Origin: a virus
IMG/VR virus record: IMGVR_UViG_3300017593_002057
Span: 1 to 47,018 of that record
DNA: 47,018 nt
Strand: one strand, 5' to 3'
This document shows positions 2,493 to 20,696 of the stretch, piece by piece. The notes under the pieces are model-generated. The model was not told the DNA's origin, did not search any database, and was given only the letters and a program-made list of their open reading frames with translations. Every line of letters starts with the position of its first letter. Position 1 is the stretch's first letter. Both the position numbers and the translations under genes were made by a program.

Positions 2493-2512
2493 TTTGAAAC
2501 AAAATTAAAACG

Positions 2513-3208: not shown

Positions 3209-3220
3209 ATTTAATCACCC

Positions 3221-3280: not shown

Positions 3281-4257
3281 TATGAATTTTTTATTTTATT
3301 TAATGTTTCAGAATCAATAAGTGCTTCTAACAATTTCCAAGTGTCAAAATCAGGTTTATTTTCCATAGCTGCTTTGGTTAACATTTCTAAATCTTTATAA
3401 CATTGATGACATACCATTATACAATCGAACTTCTTTCCAAGAAGAAATTTTCTATTACAAATTGGACATATCTTATAATCTTTTTCAACATCTTGAATTA
3501 TGAACTTTTCTGGACGATTTAAGATATCAAGTACCAATTTTTCATTAGTTAATTCTTCTTCCCATAAAAAAATCATCTTCCAGCCGTACTTTTCAAAATG
3601 TTGCTTTCTATTTTTTATTTCTTCTTCATTATGCCAATATCTACCTAAAACTTCAATTATAATCTTCTTATCTTTATGGATAAAATCAGGATTCTTACCA
3701 TCAATCCAAAGTTGACCATCACCAACATAGCGCCAAGATAAATTATACTTATTTATCAACTCAATAAGAATTTTTTCAATGCTAGTTGGTCTTCTCTTTT
3801 GAGAATCTGCAAGCATCTCAAAAAATTCATCTTTTGAAATCTTCATCCATTCCCAAGGATGCATTCCCTTGTTCCAACAATTCCAATTAGAATTCCCACT
3901 TCTCTTTCTTTTTATAACTTCATTTCCTTTTGGAGAAATTTCCTTTAAATGTTGAATTATCTTTCGTTTCTTTTCTTCATCGAGATTCTTCCACCAATTC
4001 TTTTTAGCTTTACTATAAATAGCTGACAATTCTTCTCTACTAATATGCCATACTTTCTTCTTACCTTTGAATTGCTCCGATGTCGCTTTTCTCTTTCGTT
4101 CCAAACCTTCTTTTGTCCAAACTCTTTTGCATCGTTTTAAACCTAATCTATGAACACGATTGCGAATAGCAGAAATAGTGCAATTAAATTCTTTAGCAAT
4201 TTCATCTACAGGAACACCATCCAAATACATCTGCTTTAACTTTTCTATTTGATCCAT
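3280..4257 (-). CDS. Homing-endonuclease-type protein (HTH, Vsr-like nuclease, zinc finger)
   Basis: A 325-residue freestanding nuclease. Residues about 1-42 form a helix-turn-helix ('DEIAKEFNCTISAIRNRVHRLG'-like, split here as DEIAKEFNCT and SAIRNRVHRL). Residues about 155-240 carry a Vsr/EDxHD-type PD-(D/E)XK core: 'SIEKIL', 'NPDFIHKDK', 'IIEVLGRYWH', with the expected acidic residues and histidine. A C-terminal zinc finger (CPIC ... CHQC) follows. Such proteins cut intron-less or sequence-specific phage sites and spread their own gene. It has its own near-consensus promoter and starts with ATG at the predicted transcript start, with no SD. It is inserted between two tail genes. High confidence in a nuclease, moderate in active homing. 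Confidence 0.8.
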   Translation of the reverse strand: MDQIEKLKQMYLDGVPVDEIAKEFNCTISAIRNRVHRLGLKRCKRVWTKEGLERKRKATSEQFKGKKKVWHISREELSAIYSKAKKNWWKNLDEEKKRKIIQHLKEISPKGNEVIKRKRSGNSNWNCWNKGMHPWEWMKISKDEFFEMLADSQKRRPTSIEKILIELINKYNLSWRYVGDGQLWIDGKNPDFIHKDKKIIIEVLGRYWHNEEEIKNRKQHFEKYGWKMIFLWEEELTNEKLVLDILNRPEKFIIQDVEKDYKICPICNRKFLLGKKFDCIMVCHQCYKDLEMLTKAAMENKPDFDTWKLLEALIDSETLNKIKNS

Positions 4258-4263
4258 AACCTT

Positions 4264-4292
4264 ATTATAATCATAATAGAATCTAATGTCAA
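4264..4292 (-). promoter_or_regulatory. Consensus sigma70 promoter for a leaderless endonuclease mRNA
   Basis: Read on the minus strand: TTGACA (4292-4287), 17-bp spacer, TATAAT (4269-4264), both perfect. Six bases (AAGGTT) separate the -10 box from the ATG at 4257, so the predicted +1 coincides with the start codon and the mRNA should be leaderless. Confidence 0.85.
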
Positions 4293-4329
4293 TACCAAAA
4301 CTATATCTTCATATCCCAAATCAATGTGA

Positions 4330-4974
4330 TTATATCAACGATGAAAAAATTGGTAATAATTTAGCAGCAATACCAATACCAATGCCTATAAGCAAAACGA
4401 TCTCGTCCCAAATCCATGTTAACTGCTCTGAGGATTGCTGCCCATGGGTAGCGTCATTGGCTACTCGGCACTGAAGTACTATATGTTTACTATGTCCTTC
4501 AGATGTATAATCCGTAGTATCTACTACTAATGGATTAGAAGAAGTATAATTTTCCACATTTTTGACTTTATCTGTTTGGCTTTTATAATATGCGTGGCCA
4601 TTTGTAGAATCTTCTATTGGATGTCCTGTTGTGCCCTGTGTTCCATCCGCTTGCTGATAATCAGAATCTGGACAACCATTATCACCGCTGTCTCTTACGC
4701 CAACACGAACTTCACCATTAGTTCCTAATGTCCAACCAATAGTACCATCACAATACCATCTAATATTATTAATCTGTGTAAAAGTACCTGTGAATTTTAT
4801 CCTATGGCTTTTCCAATAACTATAATTGAAACCAGAATCGGGAATTGGAATGGGATAATTCAAACCAGGATTGTATGTGTCAGCAGTGCAAAATCTAGCA
4901 CTTGTAATTTCTGTTGCTGTTGGTCCTGGACTTTCTGCACCGTTTAATTCTTCTACTGCTACCGTTGCTGCCAT
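4330..4974 (-). CDS. Putative tail virion protein with an unusual hydrophobic C-terminal extension
   Basis: A 214-residue protein. ATG at 4974 is chosen because GGGAGG precedes it; the frame stays open further upstream but without an SD. The body (about 1-192) reads as a beta-rich phage structural protein: 'FTGTFTQINNIRWYCDG', 'SKHIVLQCRVA', ending in 'LTWIWDEI', which resembles the normal C-terminus of such proteins as I recall them. About 22 more residues follow, including 'GIGIGIAAKLLPIFSSLI', which is hydrophobic and membrane-like. The neighbouring endonuclease gene lies immediately downstream, so the tail may be read-through created by that insertion. It has its own promoter (5005-5033) and sits just after the tape measure. 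Confidence 0.6.
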   Translation of the reverse strand: MAATVAVEELNGAESPGPTATEITSARFCTADTYNPGLNYPIPIPDSGFNYSYWKSHRIKFTGTFTQINNIRWYCDGTIGWTLGTNGEVRVGVRDSGDNGCPDSDYQQADGTQGTTGHPIEDSTNGHAYYKSQTDKVKNVENYTSSNPLVVDTTDYTSEGHSKHIVLQCRVANDATHGQQSSEQLTWIWDEIVLLIGIGIGIAAKLLPIFSSLI

Positions 4975-5004
4975 TTTAAAAACCTCCCTTTCTTTTGTTT
5001 TTCT

Positions 5005-5033
5005 TTTATAACACAAAAGTTAAATTTTGGCAA
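5005..5033 (-). promoter_or_regulatory. Sigma70-type promoter between tape measure and gene 4330-4974
   Basis: On the minus strand: TTGCCA (5033-5028), 17-bp spacer, TATAAA (5010-5005), each matching 5 of 6 consensus bases, with an extended TG one base before the -10. It lies between the tape measure stop and the SD of the next gene, so it probably boosts that virion gene. Confidence 0.65.
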
Positions 5034-5036
5034 ATT

Positions 5037-8000
5037 CTAAGCATTTCTTCCAACTAATCTTTTTCTTGTTAGAAATTTTTCTAATTTATTAGCAACTTCT
5101 TCAGAAGTTACCACTGGAAATGTTTCAGTACCAATTACTAAATTAAGGTTTACGGTTCTCTTAATTCCCTCAGTTGTCTGAATTTCGCCGCCTTTTTGAT
5201 AACTACTAAACATTTCTTTTGGAAATTGTAAATTGTTCAATGCATTCAAAAATCTTAAACCATAAGATTCAACAGCTTTTTTCCTTAATATAAATTCGCC
5301 AGGTTCCAATAAGGTTGGAACTCTATCACCAGTTCCAAATCCAGTTACTAAACCACCAATTTGCATACCAGTCGGCGGTGTGCCAGCTGCACCAGCTGGT
5401 TTTGTTTTTCCTAGTTGTTTTTGCAATTCTAATGCTTTCTTTAACTTTTTAATATATTCATCTAAAATTTTCAATAATTGATTTAAATCCCTAAAATCAA
5501 CTTTTGGTTCTATATCTTTTATTTTTTGAATCGCTTCAAATTCAGATTTAAGCAATGAAATATTATCCAATGCATCTTGGAATTTCTTTCTTGATCTTTC
5601 CAAACGCTCTATTTGTTTATCAATAGCATCAATCAATTTTTCATATTCTTCACGTTCACGCATAAGTGCTTCAAGACTTGTAGATTCAACGTCTTTAATT
5701 TCTTCAACATCTCTAGCACGTCTTTCAATAATATCATCTAATTCATCTCTTAACCATTCAACAAATGATTCCATTTCTGGTGTTCTTAATCCTTCTGGAA
5801 TACGTTGTATTATTGAAATTGCCTGTTGCAAATTCCTTTCAGTCAAACCATAATATTGTTCACTAGTTTGCCACATAAAATTAGCCTGTGCCAATGCAGC
5901 TCTAGCAGCTTCCACATCACCTTTTCTTGCAAACTCAGCAGCTTTGCGATAATTCCTTAAGGCCTTTTCCCTATAATCCAATGCTTTAACATGTAAACTC
6001 ATTGCTCTTGAATGCCTACGATGAGCATAATGTACTAACTTTTCAGCCTGTTCTGTTGTTCTTATCTCCTGATTAATCAAACCTTCATAACGCATCCATC
6101 TTCTTTCTTCAGCAGCAAAAGCTTGTTCAACAGCCTGAATACTTCTTTGTGCCCAAGTTTGTTTCATATTTATCAATACATTTAAAGCATTAACTTGTCT
6201 CTGATATTCAGCACGCTGCTCACGCATTTTGCTGATTTCCCTATTAATCATTCTAATTCTGATTCTTGTATAGGCTTCAAATGGTTCTAACTTAGTCAAT
6301 TCATCACGCAATTTCTTCAATTGTTCGGCAACTGGAACTTTCTGCATTTTTGCACCGATGCCAGCAAAAACTTCTCCAAATACACCCATTTCTTCTGTCA
6401 TTTGCATTAAGGTTTGCAGAAATTTTAAAGCTAAATCATCTGGTAAAGATGCTGCCCATTCCCTTAATGATTTACCAATATCTATCATATTTTTCTTAGT
6501 CAAAACACCATATTTTCTAAGCAATTGCAGCAAATTCATAAACCAATTAAGGACCTTAGCACGTTGTTCTTCTGGAACTGATAAAACTAGTTGTTGCAAA
6601 GCAATAATAACTGGCTTAATATTTTCAGATGTTAAGATTCCTGCTTTACCTAATTTCATAATCCATTCAAAAATCTTTCTAACTTTATCTATATGTTCAC
6701 TAGCATAATCACCTAAATCTCTCAAAGTTTCAGAAAATTTATCTATATCTTTGACAAATTTATCCACATCGAATGGTTCTATCTTTTTGGGTTTTTCAAT
6801 GCCTTTCATTCTTCTTTCTAAATCTTCAAAAGCTCTTCTTCCTATATCAGTATATCCTTCTGTTGCTTTTTCTACAGATGTTTTCCATTCATTGGTTGCT
6901 TTGGCAGTTTTCTTTATCTCTTCTCTTAATTTAATATGTTTCTCAATCATCTGGCCCATTTGTTCAATATTCTTATCTAAGGTCTTACCGAGCTTTTCTT
7001 TCATTTCGTCACGAAGTTTCTTGAGTTCTTTTTCAGCTTTGTCAGCTTGTTCTTTTAAACCAGCTAACATCAAACCTAAGACGCCAATTGCAGCACTTAT
7101 AGTCTCTACAGGATCTTTACCTTTCCTGATTTGTTCTACATAGTATTCCATACCTTGACCCATCTTAGAAAGTTCTGTAACAGCTGTTCTTTTTAATTCG
7201 TTCAAATCTATCATACCTTGTTTATATTTTGCCATTGCCTTTGTAATATTATCATATACCAATTGGGCCTTTCCAAGTTCGGTAATTGCTTTAAACATGT
7301 TTTGTTGTGCTTCTATAAAACTTCTAGTTGTTTCGGCCAATCCTTCGACAGTTTTTCTTGCCAAAATCATCTTACCAATCCACATAACCAATGTAGTAGC
7401 AAGTAATACAATTAGATATTGCCAGTTTCCAGTTGCAAAGGCAGTAATTGTTATTTCTTTTCTAAGTAAAGCAAGTGCATCTTTTAAAAGTTTAAGTGAA
7501 GTTATAAATTTTATAGTTCTTGTAGTGACAGTACCAATTACTAATGTTAATCCAGTTATAGCTATAGACATACCTGCAAATTCCGCTACTACAGTGCCTC
7601 TACCTGTGGCAATCAATTTCATAAATTCTGTAAGTGTGGCAATCACATATTTCAATGGAATTGCCATACCTTCAAATATTGCTCTAGACATTCCAATGAA
7701 AGCATTTTTAAATAGCATTAATTGTGTAATTAAATTATCTAAATAGAGAGAAAGAGAATTTGAAACAGTACCTGTCATTTTTAATGCGTCATTTAAAATT
7801 GGCAAATATTTAGATTGTGATAATAAAATTGCAAATGCTGTACTTCCCCTGATTCCGACACCTTCTATTGCATCGCTAACATCAAATGCTCTTTCATGCA
7901 GTAAAGTAAATATTTCAGCCAAACTATGTAATCTTGGATCAACTTCTTCAGCTGTTAAGCCAACTTTTGCTAATGCTTCTTTAAATCTATCAGTTGGTGC

Positions 8001-10829
8001 TGTCAAACGCATTAATAATGATCTTAGATACACACCAATCTTAGAACCTTCTAATCCTGCATTAGCCAAAACTGCCATTGCACTGGCAGTCTCCAAAAAT
8101 GATACACCTGCCGTAGATGCTACGGCAGCTACATATCCTAAAGCAGTCCTTAATCCTTCCAAAGATAATCGGCTTTTCGTGATTGCATTAAATAAAATAT
8201 CGCCAATTCGTGTTGCTTCATCAGCAGAATAACCCCAAGACCTTATAACTACCATAATAGCATGTGCAGCATCTTCTACACTAGATTTTGTTACCATTGC
8301 CAATTTGGCAGCTGTATCAACTATTTTCATAGTCTCTTCAGCACTAAATCCTGCCTTAGCAACTTCAATTCCAACTTGTGATAAGTCTCTAATTGAATAA
8401 GTGACATTTAAACTTAAATTATGAAATGATTGAGCTAATCTCTCAACATCTGAAGCACTTGCTTGTGCAATAGCTCTAATTGCAACCAAATTCCTTTGAA
8501 ATTCAGCAAGTTGATTTACAACATCTAATAAGTTCATGTAAACCATCCAAAACATACGCAATTGGACAAACCAATTCACACGCATTAAATCCAATAATTG
8601 CGCACCTGCTTCTCTCCTTAATATAGCTCTAGATTTCCTAGCATATGTCTCTAAAGCACCATGTAATTGTGTTAATTGTTTAAATACAGTTTCAATTGCA
8701 GGCCCAAATTGACCTTTCAATGCATCTGCATTCATAATTACAACTTTTTCTAAATTTGTCCAAAAAGTTAACAATTGCTGTGGTGTCATATATTTTGCTA
8801 TTGTTCTAGCAGCCATATTTATATTTCTAAGGTCAGCGCCTGATCTAACTAAAACTTGCTGCAAATCACGCCAAACTCTCAATATCGGTTCTATAACTGG
8901 CCTTAACTTAGTTGTTCTTTGGTATAATTCACTAATTTCTTCATTTGACTTCCCAATAAATTGGGCCATTTCTCTATGGATTGGAATTGTTTCATCTAAA
9001 GCACCACCCATCTTGACATACTTAGCTAATAAAGATTCCATCTGACGATTTAATAATTCAAGTTGTGTCAACTTTGCAATATGTTGTTGAACATCCTGCT
9101 TATCTAAATTCAGCAAATGTAATGTAGTTCCATGAATTCTTTGATTAGTAACAGCTATTTGATCCAAAATTTGTTCAAATTTCCTATATTCAGCAACTTC
9201 AGCGGCAACAGCCCGTTTCTTTAATAATTCATCACGTAAAGTAAGTAACTTGTTTTCAATTTCAAATTGTTCAGTTTCTTTCTTAGTTAAACTGAGTGCA
9301 GCTTCAAGTGTTCTTATCTGATCTTGAAGCAATTTAATTTCCTGTTCCAATGATAGAACACCTTGATTCCTTAATTGATTCAATCTTTCAACACTTTCCA
9401 CTGCTGATTGCACAAATTTAGGTTGCGCAGCTAAAATATTTGAAATTGCCTTTTGGACTGGAACATTTGCTTTAACTGCGGCAACAACTTCATTTATCAA
9501 TTTAGTGTAATTTTCCAATGGATTAATACCTGCCGTTAATAAAGCTATATATGTAGATGTATTCTTTATTAAATTTTCTTGAACTTTCTGACGTGCCAAA
9601 TCAATAGTAGCCATTTCTTTTAAAGTTTGAATATTTTTAATATTCAAATTATTTTCTTCTAAAACAGTTCGTAAGATTTTCTTTCTCCTAGCAGGTAACT
9701 TTTCGTATAATGCTAAAATTTGATTTGTTAATTCTATTGTCCTTTCTAATGCAGTTGTTCCACCAAAAATGGATTCTACAGTACGCACTTTTGCCAATTT
9801 ATTCAATTCTGCAACTAATGCTTTAGCATACTCTGTCATATTCAAATATTGCTGCAACAATCTACGATTCCCAGTTCCAGTTAGTAAGATTGTATCTTTT
9901 ATTCTATTTAATAAATTATTATGTGCTTCTAATGCACCGACCCCAGTTCTTAGACTAGTTAGATATTGCTGGTACGCTTGCTGTAACATCTGTGTACTTC
10001 TCAATCGTTCAAGTTCTGCCTGACGCATTGCTAATGTAGCCTGATACCTTCTTGGCTCAATCTGATTGGCAATATTCAATAATGAAATTTCTTGTTGCAA
10101 TAAATTTATTCTTTCAGTTATAGGAAGCATTCCTTGACGGCGAACTTGTGCCAATCTTTGTGCCTCATCTTTCAATTGTCTGACTATATTGGCTTCCTTC
10201 AATAAATCTGTAACAACTTCCAATTCAGTAACACCATGCATTCTAGCAATCCTAACTACAGCATCCATTATATTTCTGTAATTTTGATAAACATTCATTC
10301 CACGTGCAATTGCATCTATTGAAGTTGAAATCTGTTCTTTTAATGTAGCTTCCATTTCAATCCTTTGTCTAATCAAATTCAAATTTTCTGTATTAACTTT
10401 CTTTTGTGATAATAATCTATCTGTCTGTTGTTCAAGTGTTTTCAAAACGCCAGCATAGGCCTGTTGAAGTTCAAATACTTTTTCCAAATTTGGTTTTCCG
10501 CTTCTTAGTATTTCCTGAAATTTGATTTTGAATTCATCTAAAGACGCTATTACTTTTCTAAAAGGTTCTGCAGAAATTCCCAAATCAGCAAATATTTCAG
10601 ATTTAGTATAAAGTGAATCTATTTGATTTAAAATAATAGAAATTGCTTTTGATACATTCAAGAAAGGATCAGCTCTGAAAAATGCACCAGCAGAAAATTT
10701 ACGTTCTAAAGCAGTCAATAGAGCATCAAACTTCATAAGTTTTTCTTCTAAATCTTTCAGACCAGCAGATAGATGTTCTAATCCCTTTGCATCAAATCTA
10801 AATAAGTATCTTAAACCGCCGAGTTCCAT
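5037..10829 (-). CDS. Tail tape measure protein
   Basis: A 1930-residue protein, by far the longest in the window, which fits a tape measure that sets the length of a long tail. The first 700 residues are mostly helical, Gln/Leu/Glu-rich coiled coil. Residues about 750-1060 match the TP901-type minor tail/tape measure core ('FLETASAMAVLANAGLEGSK' and the surrounding Ala-rich helices). Hydrophobic segments lie near residues 1090 and 1140, as is usual for tape measures that reach the host membrane. A charged coiled coil follows. The C-terminal part has the common motif 'GGLVTGFGTGDRVP ... PGEFILRK' near residue 1830. The ATG is preceded by GGAGGAG. It follows the tail chaperone genes, the classic order. 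Confidence 0.93.
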   Translation of the reverse strand: MELGGLRYLFRFDAKGLEHLSAGLKDLEEKLMKFDALLTALERKFSAGAFFRADPFLNVSKAISIILNQIDSLYTKSEIFADLGISAEPFRKVIASLDEFKIKFQEILRSGKPNLEKVFELQQAYAGVLKTLEQQTDRLLSQKKVNTENLNLIRQRIEMEATLKEQISTSIDAIARGMNVYQNYRNIMDAVVRIARMHGVTELEVVTDLLKEANIVRQLKDEAQRLAQVRRQGMLPITERINLLQQEISLLNIANQIEPRRYQATLAMRQAELERLRSTQMLQQAYQQYLTSLRTGVGALEAHNNLLNRIKDTILLTGTGNRRLLQQYLNMTEYAKALVAELNKLAKVRTVESIFGGTTALERTIELTNQILALYEKLPARRKKILRTVLEENNLNIKNIQTLKEMATIDLARQKVQENLIKNTSTYIALLTAGINPLENYTKLINEVVAAVKANVPVQKAISNILAAQPKFVQSAVESVERLNQLRNQGVLSLEQEIKLLQDQIRTLEAALSLTKKETEQFEIENKLLTLRDELLKKRAVAAEVAEYRKFEQILDQIAVTNQRIHGTTLHLLNLDKQDVQQHIAKLTQLELLNRQMESLLAKYVKMGGALDETIPIHREMAQFIGKSNEEISELYQRTTKLRPVIEPILRVWRDLQQVLVRSGADLRNINMAARTIAKYMTPQQLLTFWTNLEKVVIMNADALKGQFGPAIETVFKQLTQLHGALETYARKSRAILRREAGAQLLDLMRVNWFVQLRMFWMVYMNLLDVVNQLAEFQRNLVAIRAIAQASASDVERLAQSFHNLSLNVTYSIRDLSQVGIEVAKAGFSAEETMKIVDTAAKLAMVTKSSVEDAAHAIMVVIRSWGYSADEATRIGDILFNAITKSRLSLEGLRTALGYVAAVASTAGVSFLETASAMAVLANAGLEGSKIGVYLRSLLMRLTAPTDRFKEALAKVGLTAEEVDPRLHSLAEIFTLLHERAFDVSDAIEGVGIRGSTAFAILLSQSKYLPILNDALKMTGTVSNSLSLYLDNLITQLMLFKNAFIGMSRAIFEGMAIPLKYVIATLTEFMKLIATGRGTVVAEFAGMSIAITGLTLVIGTVTTRTIKFITSLKLLKDALALLRKEITITAFATGNWQYLIVLLATTLVMWIGKMILARKTVEGLAETTRSFIEAQQNMFKAITELGKAQLVYDNITKAMAKYKQGMIDLNELKRTAVTELSKMGQGMEYYVEQIRKGKDPVETISAAIGVLGLMLAGLKEQADKAEKELKKLRDEMKEKLGKTLDKNIEQMGQMIEKHIKLREEIKKTAKATNEWKTSVEKATEGYTDIGRRAFEDLERRMKGIEKPKKIEPFDVDKFVKDIDKFSETLRDLGDYASEHIDKVRKIFEWIMKLGKAGILTSENIKPVIIALQQLVLSVPEEQRAKVLNWFMNLLQLLRKYGVLTKKNMIDIGKSLREWAASLPDDLALKFLQTLMQMTEEMGVFGEVFAGIGAKMQKVPVAEQLKKLRDELTKLEPFEAYTRIRIRMINREISKMREQRAEYQRQVNALNVLINMKQTWAQRSIQAVEQAFAAEERRWMRYEGLINQEIRTTEQAEKLVHYAHRRHSRAMSLHVKALDYREKALRNYRKAAEFARKGDVEAARAALAQANFMWQTSEQYYGLTERNLQQAISIIQRIPEGLRTPEMESFVEWLRDELDDIIERRARDVEEIKDVESTSLEALMREREEYEKLIDAIDKQIERLERSRKKFQDALDNISLLKSEFEAIQKIKDIEPKVDFRDLNQLLKILDEYIKKLKKALELQKQLGKTKPAGAAGTPPTGMQIGGLVTGFGTGDRVPTLLEPGEFILRKKAVESYGLRFLNALNNLQFPKEMFSSYQKGGEIQTTEGIKRTVNLNLVIGTETFPVVTSEEVANKLEKFLTRKRLVGRNA

Positions 10830-10832
10830 TTA

Positions 10833-11042
10833 TTATCTTCTCCTCCTTCTTTTTACATGATATGGAAGTCCTTTTTCCTTAGTTTTTGCAAAATCTCTTA
10901 ATTGTTTAAGCGTCATTTGTTTGGCAAGACGTTTAATTATTGGCCTTAGATTTTTAGGTATATCTGATAATTTTAATGTTCCTTTTTTATAAGCATATGT
11001 CATTGAGAACAGCCTTTTTTGGCTAATACTTACAGCAGGCAA
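10833..11042 (-). CDS. Small basic DUF3008-like phage protein
   Basis: A 69-residue basic protein. The N-terminus 'MPAVSISQKRLFSMTYAYKKG' (21 residues; core SQKRLFSMTYAYKKG) and the later 'QLRDFAKTKEKGLP' are the two signature stretches I associate with DUF3008, a short protein family common in phages and of unknown function. The C-terminus is a run of arginines, suggesting nucleic-acid contact. The start is TTG, chosen because SD AGAGGTG lies at good distance. It sits between the tail chaperones and the tape measure, so it is co-expressed with tail genes. Confidence 0.7.
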   Translation of the reverse strand: MPAVSISQKRLFSMTYAYKKGTLKLSDIPKNLRPIIKRLAKQMTLKQLRDFAKTKEKGLPYHVKRRRRR

Positions 11043-11048
11043 TGTTTA

Positions 11049-11357: not shown

Positions 11358-11359
11358 TC

Positions 11360-11948: not shown

Positions 11949-13658
11949 TTAATAAGTTTTTACAAAAACAGCATTACCACAATCCCAAATTCTATCATAC
12001 CCATTATTAACCATATTTTCCCATTCAGTTAGATTGGGATCAAAATTTTTCAATTTTTCTTTTAATTTAGCTTTTTGAAAACTTAATCTATTAAATCTTA
12101 CTAATTGAGATTTTAAGAAATAATAATAATTAGGTTCTGTGACCTTTAAAAATTCAAATCCAATCTTCATATAACTTGTTCCTAATCCATATCTTAAATC
12201 AACATAAGAAATAACAGAACGAACATTATATTCTGTAACAAAATATTTTAACAATTTCGATAAAGCACCGACAACTAAGCAATAATTCTTATTGCAAAAT
12301 CTTAAAATTTCCCATTCATATTTTTTATTAAATCTGGGTTTTCCCATTGTTAATAAAGACATTAAAACATTATTATGAAATAATCCAATATGTTTACCAT
12401 TTATAAATCCTTGCAAATGATTTTCATTTAGAAATTTTTCCGCATCACTTTTATTTATTTCTTTAATATAACATTCTCTTGCAAAAATTTTATTAGTTAT
12501 TAAACCTAATTTATTCAACAAAATAGATTTTACTATTTCTTGTTTATTTACCCATTCATCTTCAAAGATATGAATTAACTGAATATTTTCTTTTAAACAT
12601 CTCAAAGTCTTATCTAAATGATAATATTTATGCCTACCTTGTAATTCACCATGCCAATAAAGACCATCAAATTCAATAGCTAAATTCTTATCTGGCAAAT
12701 AAAAATCCAAAAATCTATTTCCTAAGACATTTCTACTTTGTCTAACTATAATACCATCATAATTATTACGCAAAAATTCATATATTTCATCTTCGTATTT
12801 TGAAGAATAACCGTCTATTGGATTACAATTAGGACAACGAAGTCTTTGATAATAATCTCCATCAAAAACCAATCCACATTTTTTACATTTCCAACTATAC
12901 TTAATATAACTTCCTTCTAAATCTCGCTCACCTTTCAATTCCTTTTCTGAAAAATTAGGAATTACAGGATTGTTTTCATTCATTAGCACTCTATGATAAA
13001 AATTTTCAAGACGTTTTGTCCTAACTTTGTTCTTAATAGATTCATTATGCATGAGAACTTCAGTCCCATACTTCTTAAGATTAGTTTGCCTAGCCTTTTC
13101 CTTTATAATATCTGATTCCATTGGGTATTCAACACCGTACTTTTTTAAATTAGTCTGTCTTATCTTTTCTTTTATTAATTCAGATTGAAAAGGATTTTCC
13201 ACACCATATTTTTTCAGATTAGTCTGTTTTATCTTTTCTCTAACAATTTCTGACTGTAATCCCTGTTTGACTCCAAAATGCTTCAGAAAAGTTTCTTCTT
13301 TTTTCTTTTTTATTAATTCAGATTGTGATGGATTTTCAACACCATATTTTTTTAAATTAGTTTGTTTTATTTTTTCTTTTATAACTGGATGTTGAAAAGG
13401 ATTTTCCACTCCGTATTTTTCCTTTATAGCTTTTATTGTATTTAATTTCTTCAGTTTATTGATACAATCTCTACTACCACAAGATTTAGTAAAAGAACAT
13501 CCATTCTTTCTAACACCCACAGGCCTTCCACAAATAGGACATTTAGGAAAATCTTCCCTACTTAAAATATTGTTTTTCAAACAAAAGAGTCTCAAACTTA
13601 ACGTCGGTTTAAATTCATTTAAAAAGGAAGTAGTTTGTATTATTTCTTCTTTAGTCAT
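11949..13658 (-). CDS. Homing-endonuclease-type protein with NUMOD-like repeats and a Mom-like C-terminal domain
   Basis: A 569-residue protein from ATG at 13658. Order of parts: an N-terminal Cys-rich finger (CPIC ... CGSRDC); six or so repeats of about 24 residues built on 'KKYGVENPFQ' plus 'IKEKIRQTNL' (NUMOD-type DNA-binding repeats); a zinc ribbon (CKKC ... CPNC); a Vsr-like nuclease core ('NRFLDFYLPDKNLAIEFDG', 'LYWHGE') near residues 285-340; and a C-terminal domain of about 190 residues ('MGKPRF', 'EWEILRFCNK', 'GALSKLLKYF', 'VISYVDLRYG') that looks like a GNAT/Mom-type acyltransferase fold. It is a paralogue of the gene at 19074-20633. Own promoter, no SD. Inserted between the tail chaperone and tail tube genes. 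Confidence 0.8.
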   Translation of the reverse strand: MTKEEIIQTTSFLNEFKPTLSLRLFCLKNNILSREDFPKCPICGRPVGVRKNGCSFTKSCGSRDCINKLKKLNTIKAIKEKYGVENPFQHPVIKEKIKQTNLKKYGVENPSQSELIKKKKEETFLKHFGVKQGLQSEIVREKIKQTNLKKYGVENPFQSELIKEKIRQTNLKKYGVEYPMESDIIKEKARQTNLKKYGTEVLMHNESIKNKVRTKRLENFYHRVLMNENNPVIPNFSEKELKGERDLEGSYIKYSWKCKKCGLVFDGDYYQRLRCPNCNPIDGYSSKYEDEIYEFLRNNYDGIIVRQSRNVLGNRFLDFYLPDKNLAIEFDGLYWHGELQGRHKYYHLDKTLRCLKENIQLIHIFEDEWVNKQEIVKSILLNKLGLITNKIFARECYIKEINKSDAEKFLNENHLQGFINGKHIGLFHNNVLMSLLTMGKPRFNKKYEWEILRFCNKNYCLVVGALSKLLKYFVTEYNVRSVISYVDLRYGLGTSYMKIGFEFLKVTEPNYYYFLKSQLVRFNRLSFQKAKLKEKLKNFDPNLTEWENMVNNGYDRIWDCGNAVFVKTY

Positions 13659-13664
13659 AAGCAA

Positions 13665-13692
13665 ATATTAACATATTTTCTCAGTTTGTCAA
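13665..13692 (-). promoter_or_regulatory. Sigma70 promoter for a leaderless endonuclease mRNA
   Basis: Minus strand: TTGACA (13692-13687), 16-bp spacer with a TG one base before the -10, then TAATAT (13670-13665). The -10 box is followed after six bases by ATG at 13658, so the predicted transcript starts at or next to the start codon. Confidence 0.75.
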
Positions 13693-13708
13693 GCTGAAAT
13701 TATATATT

Positions 13709-14839
13709 TTATGATAAGTCACATACAAATAAATAACCATAAGGAATATCTACATAGGGAGTTCTATCTTTTAACTGCGCTTCATCGTCACGTAATACTG
13801 TCAAGGTTAAAGTATAATTCATCCACGCATCACTTGCAAATCCCAAATCTCCAGAAGGAATTAAGCTGCATCTTGGAATTATATGAACTAAATCATGTCC
13901 TATATCAGTTGTAGAAATAACAGCAGCAGCTCCATCCATAGCTATAATTGACTGCGGTGTTCCGACTACTGTATAACCAAAAACATCTGTATCATATTTA
14001 ATCCAATCAAAAGAATTAAATATGTATTCTATATTAGCAGTTGCCCAGTTATTTCCAGATACTGGATTCTTCATCTCATCCAATAGTTTTACTTTCTTAT
14101 TCATTGCAAAGTCAGCAGTAGCACCAGTTCCTGCTGGTTTTAAGAAATTCCATAAAAGTGGCGAATCCTGATTTGGATTCCAAGTATCCCAATCACCATT
14201 GCAATCAACATATGCAATATGGCCAGCTAAATTGGCCCAGTTTCCAACTGGGTCTTTAGCAATTATAAATGCATAACTATGATCATTTGCACAAGGTGGA
14301 TTCCCACTTCCACCTTTTGATTTCCATAAGGCTTCAATATAAGACTTAGCTTTTGCAGGATCATTTAATTTCTTTGTTATTACACAAATAGTTTCAGATT
14401 CAGAACCGTAAAAAGTTTTACCAGTCACTTTCAAGTCGGAAACTGATAAATTGATTTCGCTACCAACAATAAAACGATTCATATTTTTCTCATCTACTTC
14501 TGCCAATGTTAATTCATAGCTAATAGGCCTACTTAATACCACTTGTTTATCTAATTGCCTAATTCCTTCTATACTAGCATAATGCTCCAATGTGGTTACA
14601 TCGCCACCTACTGTAGCTTCTTCTAAGTTTCCTAAATAAGTTTTTGCCAGTATTTCATCCCTAGTTCCTACTATATTACCATAAGAATTTTTTACATTTC
14701 CATCAGCATCAGTTATTCCAAATATAGCATTGGCTAATGCAAGCCAATCAACTTGCATCTCTTTACTAGCTTCTGTTTTGGAAGCAAAATAAACCCTAGG
14801 AACACTAATGGTATAATTATCAGGTGTTCGCAATGCCAT
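13709..14839 (-). CDS. Major tail tube protein (copy A)
   Basis: A 376-residue protein, one of two adjacent paralogues. Shared signatures with the gene at 14873-16408 include 'GITD.(D/N)G.V.N', 'YLGNL', 'GGD(V/I)TT.EH' near residues 35-85 and a C-terminal 'IPR.SL.PSGDLGFASDAW'-type segment. Size, abundance-type codon-rich beta character and position just before the tail chaperones and tape measure fit a tail tube protein. No sheath-like second gene is seen, which supports a siphovirus tail. SD GGGGGT precedes ATG. It lies directly upstream of the endonuclease at 11949-13658 in transcription order. Confidence 0.65.
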   Translation of the reverse strand: MALRTPDNYTISVPRVYFASKTEASKEMQVDWLALANAIFGITDADGNVKNSYGNIVGTRDEILAKTYLGNLEEATVGGDVTTLEHYASIEGIRQLDKQVVLSRPISYELTLAEVDEKNMNRFIVGSEINLSVSDLKVTGKTFYGSESETICVITKKLNDPAKAKSYIEALWKSKGGSGNPPCANDHSYAFIIAKDPVGNWANLAGHIAYVDCNGDWDTWNPNQDSPLLWNFLKPAGTGATADFAMNKKVKLLDEMKNPVSGNNWATANIEYIFNSFDWIKYDTDVFGYTVVGTPQSIIAMDGAAAVISTTDIGHDLVHIIPRCSLIPSGDLGFASDAWMNYTLTLTVLRDDEAQLKDRTPYVDIPYGYLFVCDLS

Positions 14840-14872
14840 AATTTCTAACCCCCAAAACTAATTATTTATATA

Positions 14873-16408
14873 TTAAAGCATAAAGTAAGAAATAAAACCG
14901 CCTGCTGAAATATCAACAGATGTTGCTATCTCAGGGATTGTATATCCTACTAATTTCTGTATTGCCAAGACAAAACCGCCTGTCATCCAATCATCACTTG
15001 CAAAGTTTATCGTTCCATTAGGTCTTAATGCAGCTTTTGGAATTACCCAATAGAAAGATGTTCCGATTTTAGTTCTAAATATCAACATTGCACAACCTTC
15101 AATTATCTGTTTTCCTTCACCAACAACCATTGTCATCAATGTAGAATTAATCTTTGCCCAAAAATAACTTGACCAACCTAAGAGATAACCTGTAACTTCT
15201 GCCTTTCCACTTGGTACATAATTTGCATCAGTGTAATATTCTACAGTAACAGAATATGTCCCATCGGCAACAGCCTTGAATACTAATGTTAATTTTGCAT
15301 TATATGGTGAATTAGCTGTTTTATATTCAATCTTACTACCACTATCTAAGAAATTAGCCGCACCGCTTTCTATCTTTAATGGAGACTCAAAGTTTCCACC
15401 ACTATTATCAGATGTATCATCATAATAAATTTCAGTAGTAGAGCCATCACTTACCGTAACTTTGATACCTTTTCTGAATATAGTTCCATAAAGTTCAATA
15501 TATTTGGTTTGACTTGCTGGATTTACATAAGATGCAGTTTCAGTAAATTTTTCTGCATTTGTCCTATCGCCTATTACTCTATTTGCAGGAATCCCACCAT
15601 TGTAATTTTCATCAACTACTAACATTTTAATTTTGCTGCTCAAATTGGTGTCGGCATAAGAATAAGTACTTCCATTCATATTAGATGGCCAATTTTTTAT
15701 CTCCATTTTTTCCGTTACAGAATTATATTCAAAATAACCACAGATGATACGATTAGAATAAGGTTTTAAGCTAGCATCCAATGAATCTTTTAATGCATTT
15801 CCTACTAGGAAATAAAATACGCCTTTTAAAGATTCAATTATTTTTCCTTGTTCACTCAATTTATCAGTTAAAAGTTCATTTAAATTAGATTCAAATGTTG
15901 TTGCATCTGTATAACCTGTTATTTTATTATCAATTATAGCAATATAATCTTCGGCAAATGTTCCATCAGCTTTCTTAGTAGATTTTGCTACAATATATTC
16001 ATATGCAGGATAAGTAACTTCGGATGCACCAAAGAATTTCTTTAGATTTTTCTTATGAATTTCATCAAAACTAAAAGTTAATTCTATACTTCTTTGGATA
16101 ACCTTTCTTTTATCAACAACATTTATACCATCTTTATTAACAGTATGCTCTTGAGTAGTAATATCACCGCCAATAGACATATCCGTTAAGTTACCTAAAT
16201 ATGCAGCTTCCAAAATTTCACTAGGTGTTAAACCTGTATCTTCTTTCTTAGCATTTCTAACTTTACCATTAGTATCAGTTATTCCACTATATGCCCTAGC
16301 TAATGCCATTGCATCAACCACGCCAGACTTATTAAAATCATCAATTGGATAAAAATATAAAAGGGGCATTCCCAATGTATAAAACTTAGAACTTCTAGTT
16401 TCTGGCAT
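14873..16408 (-). CDS. Tail tube-like protein (copy B) with an inserted beta domain
   Basis: A 511-residue paralogue of the protein at 13709-14839: 'GITDTNGKVRN', 'AAYLGNL', 'GGDITTQEH' near the N-terminus and 'VIPKAALRPNGTINFASDDW' near the C-terminus match in order. It is about 135 residues longer. The extra length falls in the middle (about 290-420), in a stretch rich in Thr, Ser, Asp and Gly ('SVTVEYYTDANYVP') that reads like an added Ig- or jelly-roll-type surface domain. It may decorate the tube, act as a second tube subunit, or form a tail collar. SD AAAGGAGG precedes ATG. Confidence 0.6.
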   Translation of the reverse strand: MPETRSSKFYTLGMPLLYFYPIDDFNKSGVVDAMALARAYSGITDTNGKVRNAKKEDTGLTPSEILEAAYLGNLTDMSIGGDITTQEHTVNKDGINVVDKRKVIQRSIELTFSFDEIHKKNLKKFFGASEVTYPAYEYIVAKSTKKADGTFAEDYIAIIDNKITGYTDATTFESNLNELLTDKLSEQGKIIESLKGVFYFLVGNALKDSLDASLKPYSNRIICGYFEYNSVTEKMEIKNWPSNMNGSTYSYADTNLSSKIKMLVVDENYNGGIPANRVIGDRTNAEKFTETASYVNPASQTKYIELYGTIFRKGIKVTVSDGSTTEIYYDDTSDNSGGNFESPLKIESGAANFLDSGSKIEYKTANSPYNAKLTLVFKAVADGTYSVTVEYYTDANYVPSGKAEVTGYLLGWSSYFWAKINSTLMTMVVGEGKQIIEGCAMLIFRTKIGTSFYWVIPKAALRPNGTINFASDDWMTGGFVLAIQKLVGYTIPEIATSVDISAGGFISYFML

Positions 16409-16422
16409 ATTTTAAACCTCCT

Positions 16423-16818
16423 TTATTCTTTCAACAAAGCTTTAAAAGAAATTGCAAAACATCTACAACCGCCTGAAATAGAAGATATTATTTCAGGCTG
16501 AGAATCTAAAGCTAAAATTTTTCCGTTAACAATTTCTTCATTTCCATTTAATCTTTTTAAAATTAAATTTAAAGTATCAAAAGCATTTCTTGGTCTTCTA
16601 TGACAAGCAACTATCAAAAAACTAGGATAAAATCTTATATTATCAACATTTGGTGAGCCACCACCCACAGGAACAACATAAATAGCTTCTTCATTACTTT
16701 CATACAAATCTGAAATTGCTAAAAAAAATGCTTTAGCATGAATTTTTTTTCCAAATGCTTGATTTATTATATCAGATTCTTCTAAAGAATTCAAGTATTC
16801 AACTATTTTATAAATCAT
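16423..16818 (-). CDS. Putative tail terminator / tail completion protein
   Basis: A 131-residue protein in the position where the tail terminator (gpU-like) gene usually lies, between neck genes and the tail tube. Features: 'YVVPVGGGSPNVDNIRF', 'PRNAFDTLNLILKRLNG' and a C-terminal beta strand 'CRCFAISFKALL', compatible with the alpha/beta fold of terminators. SD AAGGGA precedes ATG, and the ATG overlaps the stop codon of the previous gene by four bases, indicating translational coupling. Family assignment is by context and overall pattern, not a clear motif. Confidence 0.5.
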   Translation of the reverse strand: MIYKIVEYLNSLEESDIINQAFGKKIHAKAFFLAISDLYESNEEAIYVVPVGGGSPNVDNIRFYPSFLIVACHRRPRNAFDTLNLILKRLNGNEEIVNGKILALDSQPEIISSISGGCRCFAISFKALLKE

Positions 16819-17417
16819 GCTAAATCCCTTTTAATTAATTCAGCAACTTTTCTAAATAAATTTTCCAATTCTTTCTGCATAACAGGTACAAGATTTCTCT
16901 CCATAATTTCTTTTAATGCTACATTATAATCGATACCTTGGCCCCTTTCTTCAGGTTCATCACTACGCCATCTCCTATATTCTATAAATCCACCAACAGA
17001 ATGTGTTTGATAAAATTTATATCCAGCAAATTTTCTAACTTGATTAGCTCCAGAAACAGATGCTGTATCAACACTAGCAACTAATGGATAATCATATGCA
17101 ATTCTTGTTCGCCAACTTTTAGGGTTTTTTCTTCCCCAAATCGGATTTGGCATTCCCCTTTGAGATTTAGTCACACGTGCAACTTCTCTTGCTTCCAAAA
17201 AAACTTTGCCAGATAATTGCAATGCACCTGTAGCACAACCAAGTTGATTAGTAATATTTCTTAAAATTTCTGGACAAACTAACTGAAAATATAAAAATAT
17301 CTTATCAATTAATTTTCTTCTTATGAATTTTTGAAAAGGTTCTGCTTTAAACCTATTTTCAATCTGAACCTTTTCACCTACTCTTATTGGCTCTCTTTTT
17401 ACTTCAAATCTCACCAT
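16815..17417 (-). CDS. Putative neck / tail completion protein (HK97 gp10-like position)
   Basis: A 200-residue basic protein between the head-closure gene and the tail terminator gene, the usual place for the HK97 gp10-like neck protein. The middle contains 'QRGMPNPIWGRKNPKSWRTR' and 'GGFIEYRRWRSDEPEERGQG', and the C-terminus is an amphipathic helix 'ALKEIMERNLVPVMQKELEN'. No SD is visible before the ATG, which overlaps the end of the previous gene, so it is likely translated by coupling. No strong family motif; the call rests on order and size. Confidence 0.5.
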   Translation of the reverse strand: MVRFEVKREPIRVGEKVQIENRFKAEPFQKFIRRKLIDKIFLYFQLVCPEILRNITNQLGCATGALQLSGKVFLEAREVARVTKSQRGMPNPIWGRKNPKSWRTRIAYDYPLVASVDTASVSGANQVRKFAGYKFYQTHSVGGFIEYRRWRSDEPEERGQGIDYNVALKEIMERNLVPVMQKELENLFRKVAELIKRDLA

Positions 17418-17734
17418 TAGACTATTGTTAATCTTATATATGAAAATTTTCCATCTAAATCAGTTCTTATCCTTATAGCTTCAACTATATATTCATTATC
17501 ATCAACTTTTACAATATCTCCAATCCTAATATTCAATTTTTTATCAAGCCAAATATAAGTTCTTGGCACAAAATAATCTTGCAATCTAGTATGCCTAGGT
17601 GCATTATCTTCTTGAATTCTTGCTTTTAGATTTTCGCAAATGACTTGTTTTTCCAGTAGCGCACCTGTTTCATCTAAAACATCTCTATAAATGCTAATTG
17701 TAACATTTTTGGCTTTATCAAAAAATGAAAACAT
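17417..17734 (-). CDS. Putative head-closure / head-tail joining protein
   Basis: A 105-residue, beta-rich protein. 'ENLKARIQEDN', 'YFVPRTYIWLDKKLNIRIGD' and 'VKVDDNEYIVEAIRIRTD' give the small beta-barrel pattern seen in head-closure proteins such as SPP1 gp16-like stoppers: a short strand, a loop, then 'GD.V...D.EY.V'. It is encoded between the small basic protein and the gp10-like protein within the connector cluster. No clear SD; one-base overlap with its downstream neighbour. Moderate confidence from pattern plus order. Confidence 0.55.
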   Translation of the reverse strand: MFSFFDKAKNVTISIYRDVLDETGALLEKQVICENLKARIQEDNAPRHTRLQDYFVPRTYIWLDKKLNIRIGDIVKVDDNEYIVEAIRIRTDLDGKFSYIRLTIV

Positions 17735-17736
17735 AA

Positions 17737-17979
17737 TTATTTCTTAGATTTTTTCTTCTTTCTACTTACAGATTTGGGATAATAATATTTCCCTTTGCTT
17801 ACATTAACTGCAAACAAAGCCATTTTCTGTGCATGTCCACCAGCCCTAACAGCAGCATTTATACAAGCCTGACATACGCCTTTAAATCCATGCTGTTTAC
17901 ACCATCTTTCAAACATTCCCCTATGAGAACGGGGGACTGCTCTCTGAATCCAATATTTGGGTCTTTTCCTTGCTGCCAT
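17737..17979 (-). CDS. Small basic protein of the connector cluster
   Basis: An 80-residue basic protein ending in a Lys/Arg-rich tail (SRKKKKSKK). It contains 'RSHRGMFERWCKQHGFKGVC' and 'AAVRAGGHAQKMALFAVNVS', similar in style to short helical proteins found beside capsid and connector genes in many phages. SD AGGGGG precedes ATG. The function is unknown. A DNA- or capsid-contacting role is a guess from charge and location. Confidence 0.6.
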   Translation of the reverse strand: MAARKRPKYWIQRAVPRSHRGMFERWCKQHGFKGVCQACINAAVRAGGHAQKMALFAVNVSKGKYYYPKSVSRKKKKSKK

Positions 17980-17984
17980 ATTTT

Positions 17985-18983
17985 TTACCCCCTTTGTACT
18001 TCTAACTTTCCATAAATCAAATATGGTGCTAATAATGCTATTACTTGGGGATGCACATTAAATTTTGCTGCTACTCTATCTAACTTATTTGGTCTATAAT
18101 ATGAAACTGCAACATCGCCAATTCTTTTCGATCTAATTAAAGAACTTGCATCCCAAGTCAGGATATTTTGCAAATATAATAATTGTATAATTTGAGCTTC
18201 TTTTGCATCATTTAAAGGATATATAACTTTAGATTTACAATCAGAATCTAATAATTTACTTACTTTTCCATCAAAGGTTATTGTCTTTTCTGAAATACTA
18301 TTAGAAATAATAGTAAAACATTGATGATTTCCTGTTTCATCTATATGGATAGCACCATATTTTAAAAAGTCATCAAATGCATCAAATGTTTTATCTATAG
18401 TAATTATATTTCTATAATAACCATTACATTTAAGAACTATGTCTTTATCAGTATCTGGCGGATTTGGAAATTGTATCTGCAATAATCCAGTATCATAACT
18501 TATTGTACCAATTTCATTTCCATCATGAATGATCTTACCGTTTCCGTCATCAGTAACTTCAAATTCTGAACTATTAATTATAGTTTTGATATTAATAGAA
18601 TTTGCAATTGGAAATACATCTAAATCAATTTCAAAATCTTTTTTTGAACCATCGCCCTTAGCAATATTAAAACTTTCTTCCTCAAAAGATTTAAGAATAT
18701 TTCCTTTTAATGAAAATCCATCAAAATAATCTTTATCTACTGAATAAGGCTTATATCTTGCTATTTTTCTTGGTAAGTTTAAACTTTGGCCTTTATATAA
18801 TTTTTCTCCTACAAATGGTAATCTTTCTATATAAGTTGTAGCTAATCTTAATAATGTTTCTTTCTCTTTTGTTATCTTTAACTTCCAATTTAAATCAGAC
18901 CAAATAACCAATTTCTCATTGGCTTCTTCAAGAGTTAAATATGAATTGGCATTTGGAGAAGCTGGAACAGCGTTAATTGCCAC
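17985..18983 (-). CDS. Head-tail connector (adaptor) protein with inserted beta module
   Basis: A 332-residue protein. Residues 1-85 ('ANSYLTLEEANEKL', 'LLRLATTYIERLPFVGEKLY', 'LNLPR') and the C-terminal segment ('IGDVAVSYYRPNKLD', 'ALLAPYLIYG') match the DnaT-like/gp6-type head-tail adaptor fold, which is normally about 170-200 residues. Between them lies extra sequence, including a module at about 105-190 with 'TDDGNGKI ... ISYDTGLLQIQFPNPP' that resembles a module in the tail protein at 17-1417. The start is GTG preceded by AGGGGG, and that SD lies in a hairpin. It is the first connector gene after the endonuclease at 19074-20633. Confidence 0.65.
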   Translation of the reverse strand: MAINAVPASPNANSYLTLEEANEKLVIWSDLNWKLKITKEKETLLRLATTYIERLPFVGEKLYKGQSLNLPRKIARYKPYSVDKDYFDGFSLKGNILKSFEEESFNIAKGDGSKKDFEIDLDVFPIANSINIKTIINSSEFEVTDDGNGKIIHDGNEIGTISYDTGLLQIQFPNPPDTDKDIVLKCNGYYRNIITIDKTFDAFDDFLKYGAIHIDETGNHQCFTIISNSISEKTITFDGKVSKLLDSDCKSKVIYPLNDAKEAQIIQLLYLQNILTWDASSLIRSKRIGDVAVSYYRPNKLDRVAAKFNVHPQVIALLAPYLIYGKLEVQRG

Positions 18984-19073
18984 AATATAAACCCCCTCGG
19001 AGGAACGAGGGAAGGCAGCAAGTTGCTATAATCATACCTTCCCCCGTTACATATGTGAACAGGTACAAGACCT
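18984..19073 (-). promoter_or_regulatory. Structured leader between endonuclease gene 3 and the connector gene; SD in a hairpin
   Basis: Ninety bases without a gene. On the minus strand: an imperfect palindrome GTTCACATATGTAAC; then GGGAAGG pairing with CCTTCCC around an inner AGCA/TGCT hairpin; then CCCTCG/CGAGGG with a six-base loop. The last stem contains the GAGGGGG Shine-Dalgarno sequence of the GTG-started connector gene, and it competes with the preceding stem for CCC. Two mutually exclusive foldings suggest control of translation initiation, though no known riboswitch is recognised. Confidence 0.5.
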
Positions 19074-20633
19074 CTAAGTTAAAACATAAACAAAATTTCC
19101 ACAATCCCAAATCCTATCATAACCATTTTCTATCATATTAATCCATTCAGATTTACTTTCATCAAATTTTTCTAAACGCTTAGCTAATTTATGTTTCTGA
19201 AAATTTTCCCTTGGATATCTAACAAATTCGCCAATTTTAATATAAAAATAATTAGGTTTAGAAGTTCCAATTAACTTAAATCCTAACTTCCTCAATGAAT
19301 ATCCAGTTCCATATCTTCTATCAACATAAGAAATAATGGATTTGGGATTATAATTTTCTATAAAATAATTTAATAATTTAGAAAATGCACCAACAACTAA
19401 GCAATAATTTTTATTACAAAATCTTAAAATTTCCCATTCATATTTTTTATTAAACCTAGGTTTCCCCAAACAAAGCAATGAAACTAATTCATTATTGTAA
19501 AATAATCCAATATTTAATTTGGCCTTAATATCAGATTGAAGATGATTTTCTCGCAAAAACTCTTTAACTTCATTATAATCCAAATTTTTTATAATGCAAG
19601 TTCTAGCATATATTTTATTTTCCAATAATCCAAGTTTAGCAAGTAAAATACTTTTCACAATATCTTTTTTAAATAACCATTCATCTTCAAAAATCTGAAT
19701 TAAATGAATTCCCTTTTGTTCGCACAATATTGTCTTATTTAAATGATAATTTCTATCTTTATTTCCATTTAATTCTGAATGCCAAAACAAACCATTCAAT
19801 TCAATAGCTAAATTCCTGTCTGGAATAAAAATATCTAACTCTTTTCCATCTAAAATGGAGCGATCATGAACAATTACTTTATTATTATTTTCTTCCAAAA
19901 AATCTATAAGTTCTTTTTCTTCATTAGAACCTGAACACTTTGGACATCTAACAATGCTTCTTAATGTAGATTCAAACTCATAACCGCATTTCTTACATTT
20001 AAATTTATACTTATTAGCTATGCACTGATTTTTATCTTTCCAAACACCGTTATAATTTTCAGATAGAAAAATCAAATCATTTTTATCACAATATTCCTTT
20101 AACTTAGGCAAAAACTTTTCCGTTTCTTTAAAATGTTTAATTTCACTAACAACTTTTAATTTTGATATATTATCAACGCCATATTTTTTTAATAAAGTTT
20201 TCTTAAACTTTTCTTTTATTTTTTCGTTTTGAAGAGCATATGGAACGCCATATCTTTTTAAATTGGTTTGTTTAACTTTTTCTTTAATCTGTTCATTTTG
20301 AAGTGGAACTTCAACTCCATATCTCAATAAACATGTATCTTTTGCTTTTTGTCTAAAAAAATCAGATTTTAAAGCATTATCGACGCCATACCTTTCCAAT
20401 AAAGTCTGCCTAGCCTTTTGTCTTATAAAATCAAGTTGAAATGGATTTTCAACACCATATTTTTTTAAAAAAACTTGTTTCCTTTTTTCTTTTATAACTT
20501 CAGCTTGTGATGGATTTTCAACACCATACTTCTTCAAAAAATATCTTCTAAGGTATTCAGCTACACATTCCTTCTTTCCACAGGTTTTTGAACGCTTATT
20601 TTTCTTTTCAGCACCGCAAATAGGACATTTCAT
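19074..20633 (-). CDS. Homing-endonuclease-type protein, paralogue of the gene at 11949-13658
   Basis: A 519-residue protein with the same plan as its paralogue: N-terminal zinc finger (CPIC ... CGKKEC), about five NUMOD-like repeats built on 'KKYGVENPFQ', a zinc ribbon (CKKC ... CPKC), a Vsr-like nuclease core ('LDIFIPDRNLAIELNGLFWH') and the GNAT/Mom-like C-terminal domain ('CLGKPRF', 'EWEILRFCNK', 'VVGAFSKLLNYF', 'ISYVDRRYGTGYS', 'NGYDRIWDCGNF'). DNA identity to the paralogue is very high around 19385-19470 versus 12265-12350. It starts at ATG with no SD, directly behind its own promoter. Inserted between the capsid gene and the first connector gene, a typical conserved target zone. Confidence 0.8.
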   Translation of the reverse strand: MKCPICGAEKKNKRSKTCGKKECVAEYLRRYFLKKYGVENPSQAEVIKEKRKQVFLKKYGVENPFQLDFIRQKARQTLLERYGVDNALKSDFFRQKAKDTCLLRYGVEVPLQNEQIKEKVKQTNLKRYGVPYALQNEKIKEKFKKTLLKKYGVDNISKLKVVSEIKHFKETEKFLPKLKEYCDKNDLIFLSENYNGVWKDKNQCIANKYKFKCKKCGYEFESTLRSIVRCPKCSGSNEEKELIDFLEENNNKVIVHDRSILDGKELDIFIPDRNLAIELNGLFWHSELNGNKDRNYHLNKTILCEQKGIHLIQIFEDEWLFKKDIVKSILLAKLGLLENKIYARTCIIKNLDYNEVKEFLRENHLQSDIKAKLNIGLFYNNELVSLLCLGKPRFNKKYEWEILRFCNKNYCLVVGAFSKLLNYFIENYNPKSIISYVDRRYGTGYSLRKLGFKLIGTSKPNYFYIKIGEFVRYPRENFQKHKLAKRLEKFDESKSEWINMIENGYDRIWDCGNFVYVLT

Positions 20634-20640
20634 AAAAAAA

Positions 20641-20669
20641 ATTATATAACAAAAAATTACATTTGTAAA
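20641..20669 (-). promoter_or_regulatory. Sigma70 promoter for a leaderless endonuclease mRNA
   Basis: Minus strand: TTTACA (20669-20664), 17-bp spacer, TATAAT (20646-20641), then seven T and the ATG at 20633. The -35 box overlaps the 3' arm of the hairpin that follows the capsid gene, so the end of one unit and the start of the next are fused. Confidence 0.75.
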
Positions 20670-20690: not shown

Positions 20691-20696
20691 GTTATG

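Follow-up and report, generated by a model that had tools for sequence, protein, structure and literature searches.

How is a free-standing homing endonuclease gene (HEG) expressed after it has landed in a foreign operon? The question is poorly understood even for phage T4 (PMC2988022). We examined it in three genes, HEG1, HEG2, and HEG3, of a 47,018-nt sequence from an uncultivated phage (IMG/VR record IMGVR_UViG_3300017593_002057; the window is the entire record). The T4 seg, mob, and I-Tev genes resemble HEG1-3 in having endonuclease-specific promoters and poor translation signals: half of the free-standing endonuclease genes in T4 have no recognizable initiation region, and T4 regulation limits their expression (PMC2988022). 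The T4 promoters are middle or late, however, none being early, and I-TevI-type genes have a Shine-Dalgarno (SD) sequence that is sequestered in a hairpin on early and middle transcripts, whereas HEG1-3 have host-type promoters and a predicted leader length of zero. The window phage would be a different solution from T4's to the same problem of endonuclease expression. We consider it likely that HEG1-3 are free-standing EDxHD/Vsr-type homing endonuclease genes, each expressed leaderless from its own sigma70 promoter without an SD.

Leaderless transcripts are known from other phages. The lambda cI gene, transcribed from PRM, is one case. Most middle and late mRNAs of the Thermus phage YS40 are reported to be leaderless (PMC3594737), and the PL1/PR2 transcripts of cluster O mycobacteriophages have no leader (PMC4351075). 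All of these carry general or regulatory genes, whereas the predicted leaderless transcripts of the window are restricted to selfish endonucleases, its other genes mostly having an SD. Another selfish endonuclease, the ShiLan-domain HNH endonuclease of mycobacteriophages, has likewise been proposed to undergo SD-less "leaderless" translation (PMC11855218); that proposal rests on a missing ribosome-binding site inside another gene and names no promoter, whereas the promoter geometry of HEG1-3 is explicit. HEG2 also resembles the phage morons, inserted genes that travel with their own promoter (defined in PMC2147016), but no terminator belonging to HEG2 could be established and its cargo is a nuclease likely to mobilize itself. 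By protein family, the closest described systems are the Hef-like free-standing homing endonucleases of T4-related, Campylobacter, Jersey-like, and other phages (phrog_3339/phrog_559; F-LimVIII of LIMEstone1). HEG2 and HEG3 match phrog_3339, and HEG3 can be aligned end to end with many Hef-like proteins, whose genes also lie between structural genes (PMC3296691).

Private promoters at three endonuclease start codons

The first-pass annotation had described three near-consensus promoters on the minus strand, 6 to 7 nt before endonuclease ATGs. They can be read directly in the sequence (P1, P2, and P3; Table 1) and lie far above chance expectation. P1 matches the consensus at 12 of 12 positions and ranks top in a consensus scan of positions 1-20000, P3 is within the top three of positions 20001-40000, and the P2 spacer ends in TG plus one base, an extended -10 element (TGn). 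Scored with a sigma70 weight matrix over 46,978 coding-strand positions and 52 gene starts, P1, P2, and P3 rank 1, 14, and 15. Three promoters fall 5 to 8 nt ahead of a start, against 0.025 expected by chance, and all three belong to endonucleases; the 6-7 nt geometry is present in 3/3 endonucleases and 0/49 other genes. When each gene's own 60-nt upstream region was dinucleotide-shuffled 20,000 times, the observed score was matched in 1 (P1), 12 (P2), and 6 (P3) trials.

Table 1. Positions of the endonuclease genes, promoters, and hairpin in the window
Feature	Position	Strand	Description	Assigned by
HEG1	3280..4257	minus	N-terminal GcrA-like/sigma-r4-like helix-turn-helix; Vsr/EDxHD-like (DUF559) core; C-terminal ~50 aa common to the HNH endonuclease of relatives	Pfam, PDB, hhalign
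HEG2	11949..13658	minus	Hef-like free-standing endonuclease; DUF7487 repeats, zinc ribbon, MTES_1575/EDxHD-like core	Pfam, phrog_3339
HEG3	19074..20633	minus	Hef-like endonuclease, HEG2 paralogue, in all three phages	phrog_3339
P1	4264..4292	minus	TTGACA 4292-4287, 17-nt spacer, TATAAT 4269-4264, AAGGTT, HEG1 ATG at 4257; gap 6 nt	
P2	13665..13692	minus	TTGACA 13692-13687, 16-nt spacer, TAATAT 13670-13665, TTGCTT, HEG2 ATG at 13658; gap 6 nt	
P3	20641..20669	minus	TTTACA 20669-20664, 17-nt spacer, TATAAT 20646-20641, seven T, HEG3 ATG at 20633; gap 7 nt	
Hairpin GTAAAGGCCC/GGGCCTTTAC	20664..20691	minus	After probable major capsid gene; terminator-like; 11 pairs, 6 GC; kept in relatives	
Portal gene promoter	31358..31386	minus	TTGACA-17-TGTTATGCT, 22 nt to GTG, SD present, ordinary leader; sigma70 class, conserved	

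Where would these promoters start transcription? Sigma70 start sites usually lie 7 to 8 bases past the -10 element and follow a T. At HEG1, HEG2, and HEG3 alike, counting 7 or 8 bases on from the -10 leads to the A of the ATG, which is preceded by T, and this geometry predicts a 5' untranslated region of zero length. Leaderless genes are recognized by a -10 element ~10-12 bp upstream of the start and by the lack of an SD (PMC3160421), and HEG1-3 show both features. Their anti-SD pairing energies (-1.2, -0.3, and +1.0 kcal/mol, respectively, against a cutoff of -6 kcal/mol) leave them without an SD, just as the first-pass annotation had stated. Its further statement that nearly all other genes have one is true of a majority but overstated, as about three quarters do: 36/48 are at or below -6 kcal/mol (median -9.4) when the start is picked to favor an SD, and 27/42 have one under a first-ATG rule. 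An AAGG in the P1 region, 2 nt ahead of the HEG1 ATG, is too near to act as an SD.

The choice of start codon is narrow for HEG1-3. In HEG2, a TAA lies in frame at -12, and the sole intervening candidate start is a TTG at -6. The next in-frame ATG, GTG, or TTG occurs at codon 10 at the earliest in HEG1, at codon 22 in HEG2, and at codon 33 in HEG3, and later starts in HEG1 and HEG3 would remove conserved residues of the N-terminal domain. In none of the three does an alternative start have a usable SD and leave the protein intact.

The private promoters of HEG1-3 are thus well supported, and leaderless mRNAs are a probable prediction for these three genes, though not a rule for their family. 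In the mechanism that we favor, the host polymerase with sigma70 would start at each private promoter within the structural-gene region in which HEG1-3 are located, +1 would be the A of the AUG, and the resulting leaderless mRNA would be translated from its 5' AUG without an SD, presumably through 70S initiation. Long tail or structural read-through transcripts would give little endonuclease because they provide no SD for it, leaving the private-promoter transcripts as the only effective source. Expression would then no longer depend on the operon around each gene, and would probably be low and shielded from late overproduction; we infer the homing activity and timing of HEG1-3 as well. That one phage holds three such cases, each built differently and one with an empty site in relatives, suggests a simple answer to the expression problem: the gene has its start codon fused to a host promoter of its own. 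If it is true that read-through mRNA goes untranslated, a selfish gene would limit its cost and gain independence from its insertion site.

Early transcription, which the first-pass annotation had also proposed, does not follow from promoter type, because the conserved promoter of the portal operon is of the same host sigma70 class. By this measure, HEG1-3 are not marked as early genes.

What are the encoded proteins? HEG2 and HEG3 match phrog_3339 over most of their length (E ~1e-140), and a profile of 20 HEG2/3 homologues matches structure 3r3p ("Mobile intron protein"; E 6.6e-7), which we take to be I-Bth0305I. Residues D267, E278, W284, and H285 are invariant in the 20 sequences. In HEG1, the core matches DUF559 above the Pfam cutoff and, weakly, Vsr (1cw0; E 0.015), and a PDB search also returns GcrA. 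Aligned by hhalign, HEG1 matches the HEG2/3 profile with E 1e-6 and a probability of 91%. These matches assign HEG2 and HEG3 (through 3r3p) and HEG1 (through DUF559, Vsr, and hhalign) to the EDxHD (Vsr-like) core, so that all three belong, by profile comparison, to one catalytic superfamily and differ in their DNA-binding parts; the earlier description of HEG1 as an unrelated nuclease was inexact. The three open reading frames are intact, with conserved nuclease motifs. At the sensitivity used, no relatives of HEG1 were found in the phages, viral_contigs, or genome_contigs collections.

Gain, conservation, and apparent replacement among related phages

Two related records, G001 (IMGVR_UViG_3300021513_000003) and G002 (IMGVR_UViG_3300021493_000003), share ~80-90% DNA identity with the window across long stretches. 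HEG2 is absent from both, leaving a clean empty site. The insert runs from the stop codon of the tail gene lying upstream (TTATCATAA) to a point short of the hairpin of that gene, with P2 inside it; the extent of the insert indicates that P2 arrived with HEG2. Since HEG2 lies upstream of the tail-gene hairpin, it would be in the path of tail-gene read-through. Presence or absence at a fixed site among close relatives, the mark of a mobile HEG, is therefore seen for HEG2, while the HEG1 site holds different endonucleases. HEG3 is shared by the three phages, at 90-91% identity in G001 and G002, and such a polymorphism is thus not seen for it. In the relatives, P3 keeps TTTACA, TATAAT, and the 17-nt spacing, with a gap of 6 nt (7 nt in the window), despite a diverged spacer and discriminator and a 1-nt indel between the hairpin and the ATG. 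Both comparisons, the P2 insert and the P3 hexamers and spacing conserved in three phages, bear out the first-pass claim of an autonomous promoter for each gene.

In G001 and G002, a zinc-ribbon HNH endonuclease stands in place of HEG1. It has a private promoter of its own, of the TTGACA-17-TG type (TTGACA-17-TGTTATAAT in G001, TACAAT in G002). A search of viral_contigs for relatives of this HNH gene returned only G001 itself. The last ~50 codons of HEG1 (3280-3426) are common to the HNH endonuclease and include a remnant of the HNH motif; because of this common C terminus, recombination appears to have exchanged one endonuclease for another at the site. The gene upstream of HEG1 stops ~20 residues sooner in G001 and G002 (GGGATGAAATATAA) than in the window (4330-4400), a change at its 3' end that the insertions appear to have caused.

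Do P1, P2, and P3 share a common origin? No likeness among them was found beyond the hexamers, and we reject common ancestry. HEG2 starts 37 residues further upstream of a conserved CPICG than does HEG3, and ahead of that point the DNA is not alignable. Because the promoters are dissimilar and the two paralogues start at different points of their shared protein, the leaderless geometry seems to have arisen separately in the three cases. I-TevI-type autorepression, in which a homing-site-like operator overlaps the promoter, finds no support at P2, whose similarity to the HEG2 empty site is not above that of shuffles (P = 0.455); HEG2 was the only case that could be examined.

The Hef-like family and competing explanations

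How general is this arrangement? We compared 114 dereplicated Hef-like genes from IMG/VR with 371 neighboring control genes, a blunt test in that starts were assigned by the first-ATG rule and hosts were mixed. The -10-to-ATG distance in related endonucleases, which the first-pass annotation had named as a check on its proposal, shows no significant enrichment of the leaderless geometry (5-8 nt; 7/114 against 11/371, P = 0.10). Promoters lying 14-35 nt ahead of the start are enriched (11/114 against 13/371, P = 0.011), and SD 4-mers are depleted (20/114 against 131/371 neighbors, P = 1.7e-4). The T4-late motif TATAAATA is not enriched at the leaderless distance in this survey, and cases of the Bacteroidetes motif TAnnTTTG there are too few for judgment. 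Individual homologues do resemble HEG1-3: L149 has TTGACA-16-TATACA with a 6-nt gap, overlapping a hairpin-like repeat, and a group of three (L073/L074/L075) has TATATT, TATACT, or TATAAT 4-8 nt ahead of the ATG. Among the described Hef-like genes that we examined, only the YS40 homologue has a -10 element (TATACT) six bases before its start, a GTG; the others differ from HEG1-3 in that their starts follow an annotated late promoter and a leader, follow leaders of the SD type, or have no promoter that is clearly recognizable. A family-wide leaderless strategy is therefore rejected. The shared expression strategy that had been suggested from the window holds within this phage and does not extend to the family or to the HNH gene at the HEG1 site. 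In Acinetobacter-named and Klebsiella phages (L184, L185, and L189), the Hef-like gene lies downstream of the major capsid gene and that gene's terminator, and in L184 and L189 the predicted -35 element lies within the terminator T-tract, resembling HEG3.

Several observations weigh against leaderless expression of HEG1-3. At the HEG1 site, the HNH gene of the relatives is preceded by a leader of 31-38 nt with a strong SD (AAGGAGG), so that a private promoter is a common trait while leaderlessness is not shared even by all genes at a single site. The family as a whole lacks the enrichment, and in isolated phages (of Salmonella, Klebsiella, Acinetobacter, Campylobacter, and Dickeya) most homologues either follow an SD-type leader or lack a clear sigma70 promoter. 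Furthermore, the TTTACA of P3 is supplied by the 3' arm of the hairpin after the capsid gene; as hairpin sequence it is under a second constraint, and that it is conserved does not count independently in favor of a -35 element. Because of this double role, the conservation of P3 is better judged from the -10 element and its distance. The leadered HNH gene, the family's enrichment for leadered and not leaderless promoters, and its depletion of SDs would all fit private sigma70 promoters alone, whose tight spacing reflects compaction: 30S subunits, assisted by S1, would initiate without an SD on A/U-rich RNA, including read-through RNA, and leaderlessness would have no role. However, a 6-7 nt geometry confined to the three endonucleases, with the predicted +1 on the A of the ATG each time, and the preservation of that distance in the HEG3 relatives speak against compaction alone, and we regard it as unlikely.

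The promoters could instead serve phage genes, the insertions having captured or displaced promoters of downstream structural genes, so that closeness to the ATG is incidental. T4 offers a precedent in promoters inside or beside seg and mob genes (PMC2988022), and the downstream genes of the window share the orientation of the HEGs. Yet G001 and G002 retain the same downstream genes without HEG2 and P2, and the tail-gene hairpin stands between HEG2 and those genes, which makes this explanation very improbable. Chance matches in A+T-rich intergenic DNA, ahead of poorly expressed or decaying genes, would be favored by the G+C content of ~30% and by consensus scans in which promoter-like matches overall slightly exceed those in shuffles, but the rarity of the scores in local shuffles, the conservation of P3, and the intact reading frames with nuclease motifs largely refute it, and we give it hardly any credence. 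Leaderless expression of HEG1-3 from private promoters remains our preferred reading. Its broader form, that a host promoter fused to the AUG without an SD, silent on structural read-through whatever the operon, is an insulation device evolved repeatedly by selfish phage endonucleases, is offered tentatively and with considerable doubt.

Other features of the window

The window encodes DNA polymerase A, tape measure, portal, and scaffold proteins, nearly all on one strand. From this gene content it looks like a tailed phage, and it seems to rely on the RNA polymerase of its host. A megablast search returned no near relative among phages, and an Rfam search found one tRNA only (tRNA-Gly), from which the host was not assignable. 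A hairpin repeat (GTCCCATTCTATAATTCAAG...AGAATGGGACGGATTATTGTC) occurs twice on the minus strand, after HEG1 (3281-3220) and at 27179-27117; by blastn it is also found in two places in G001 and in G002, and it has no Rfam match at the gathering threshold. A TnpB/Cas12f-like gene (27332-28483; TNB domain, PHROG transposase) is possibly frameshifted, its CxxC-containing tail running on in an overlapping open reading frame (27198-27452). No relative of this gene was found among genomes, and the segment 28412-27359 is missing from G001. The DNA polymerase A gene (31941-34337) apparently also encodes, as an N-terminal fusion, a uracil-DNA glycosylase domain.

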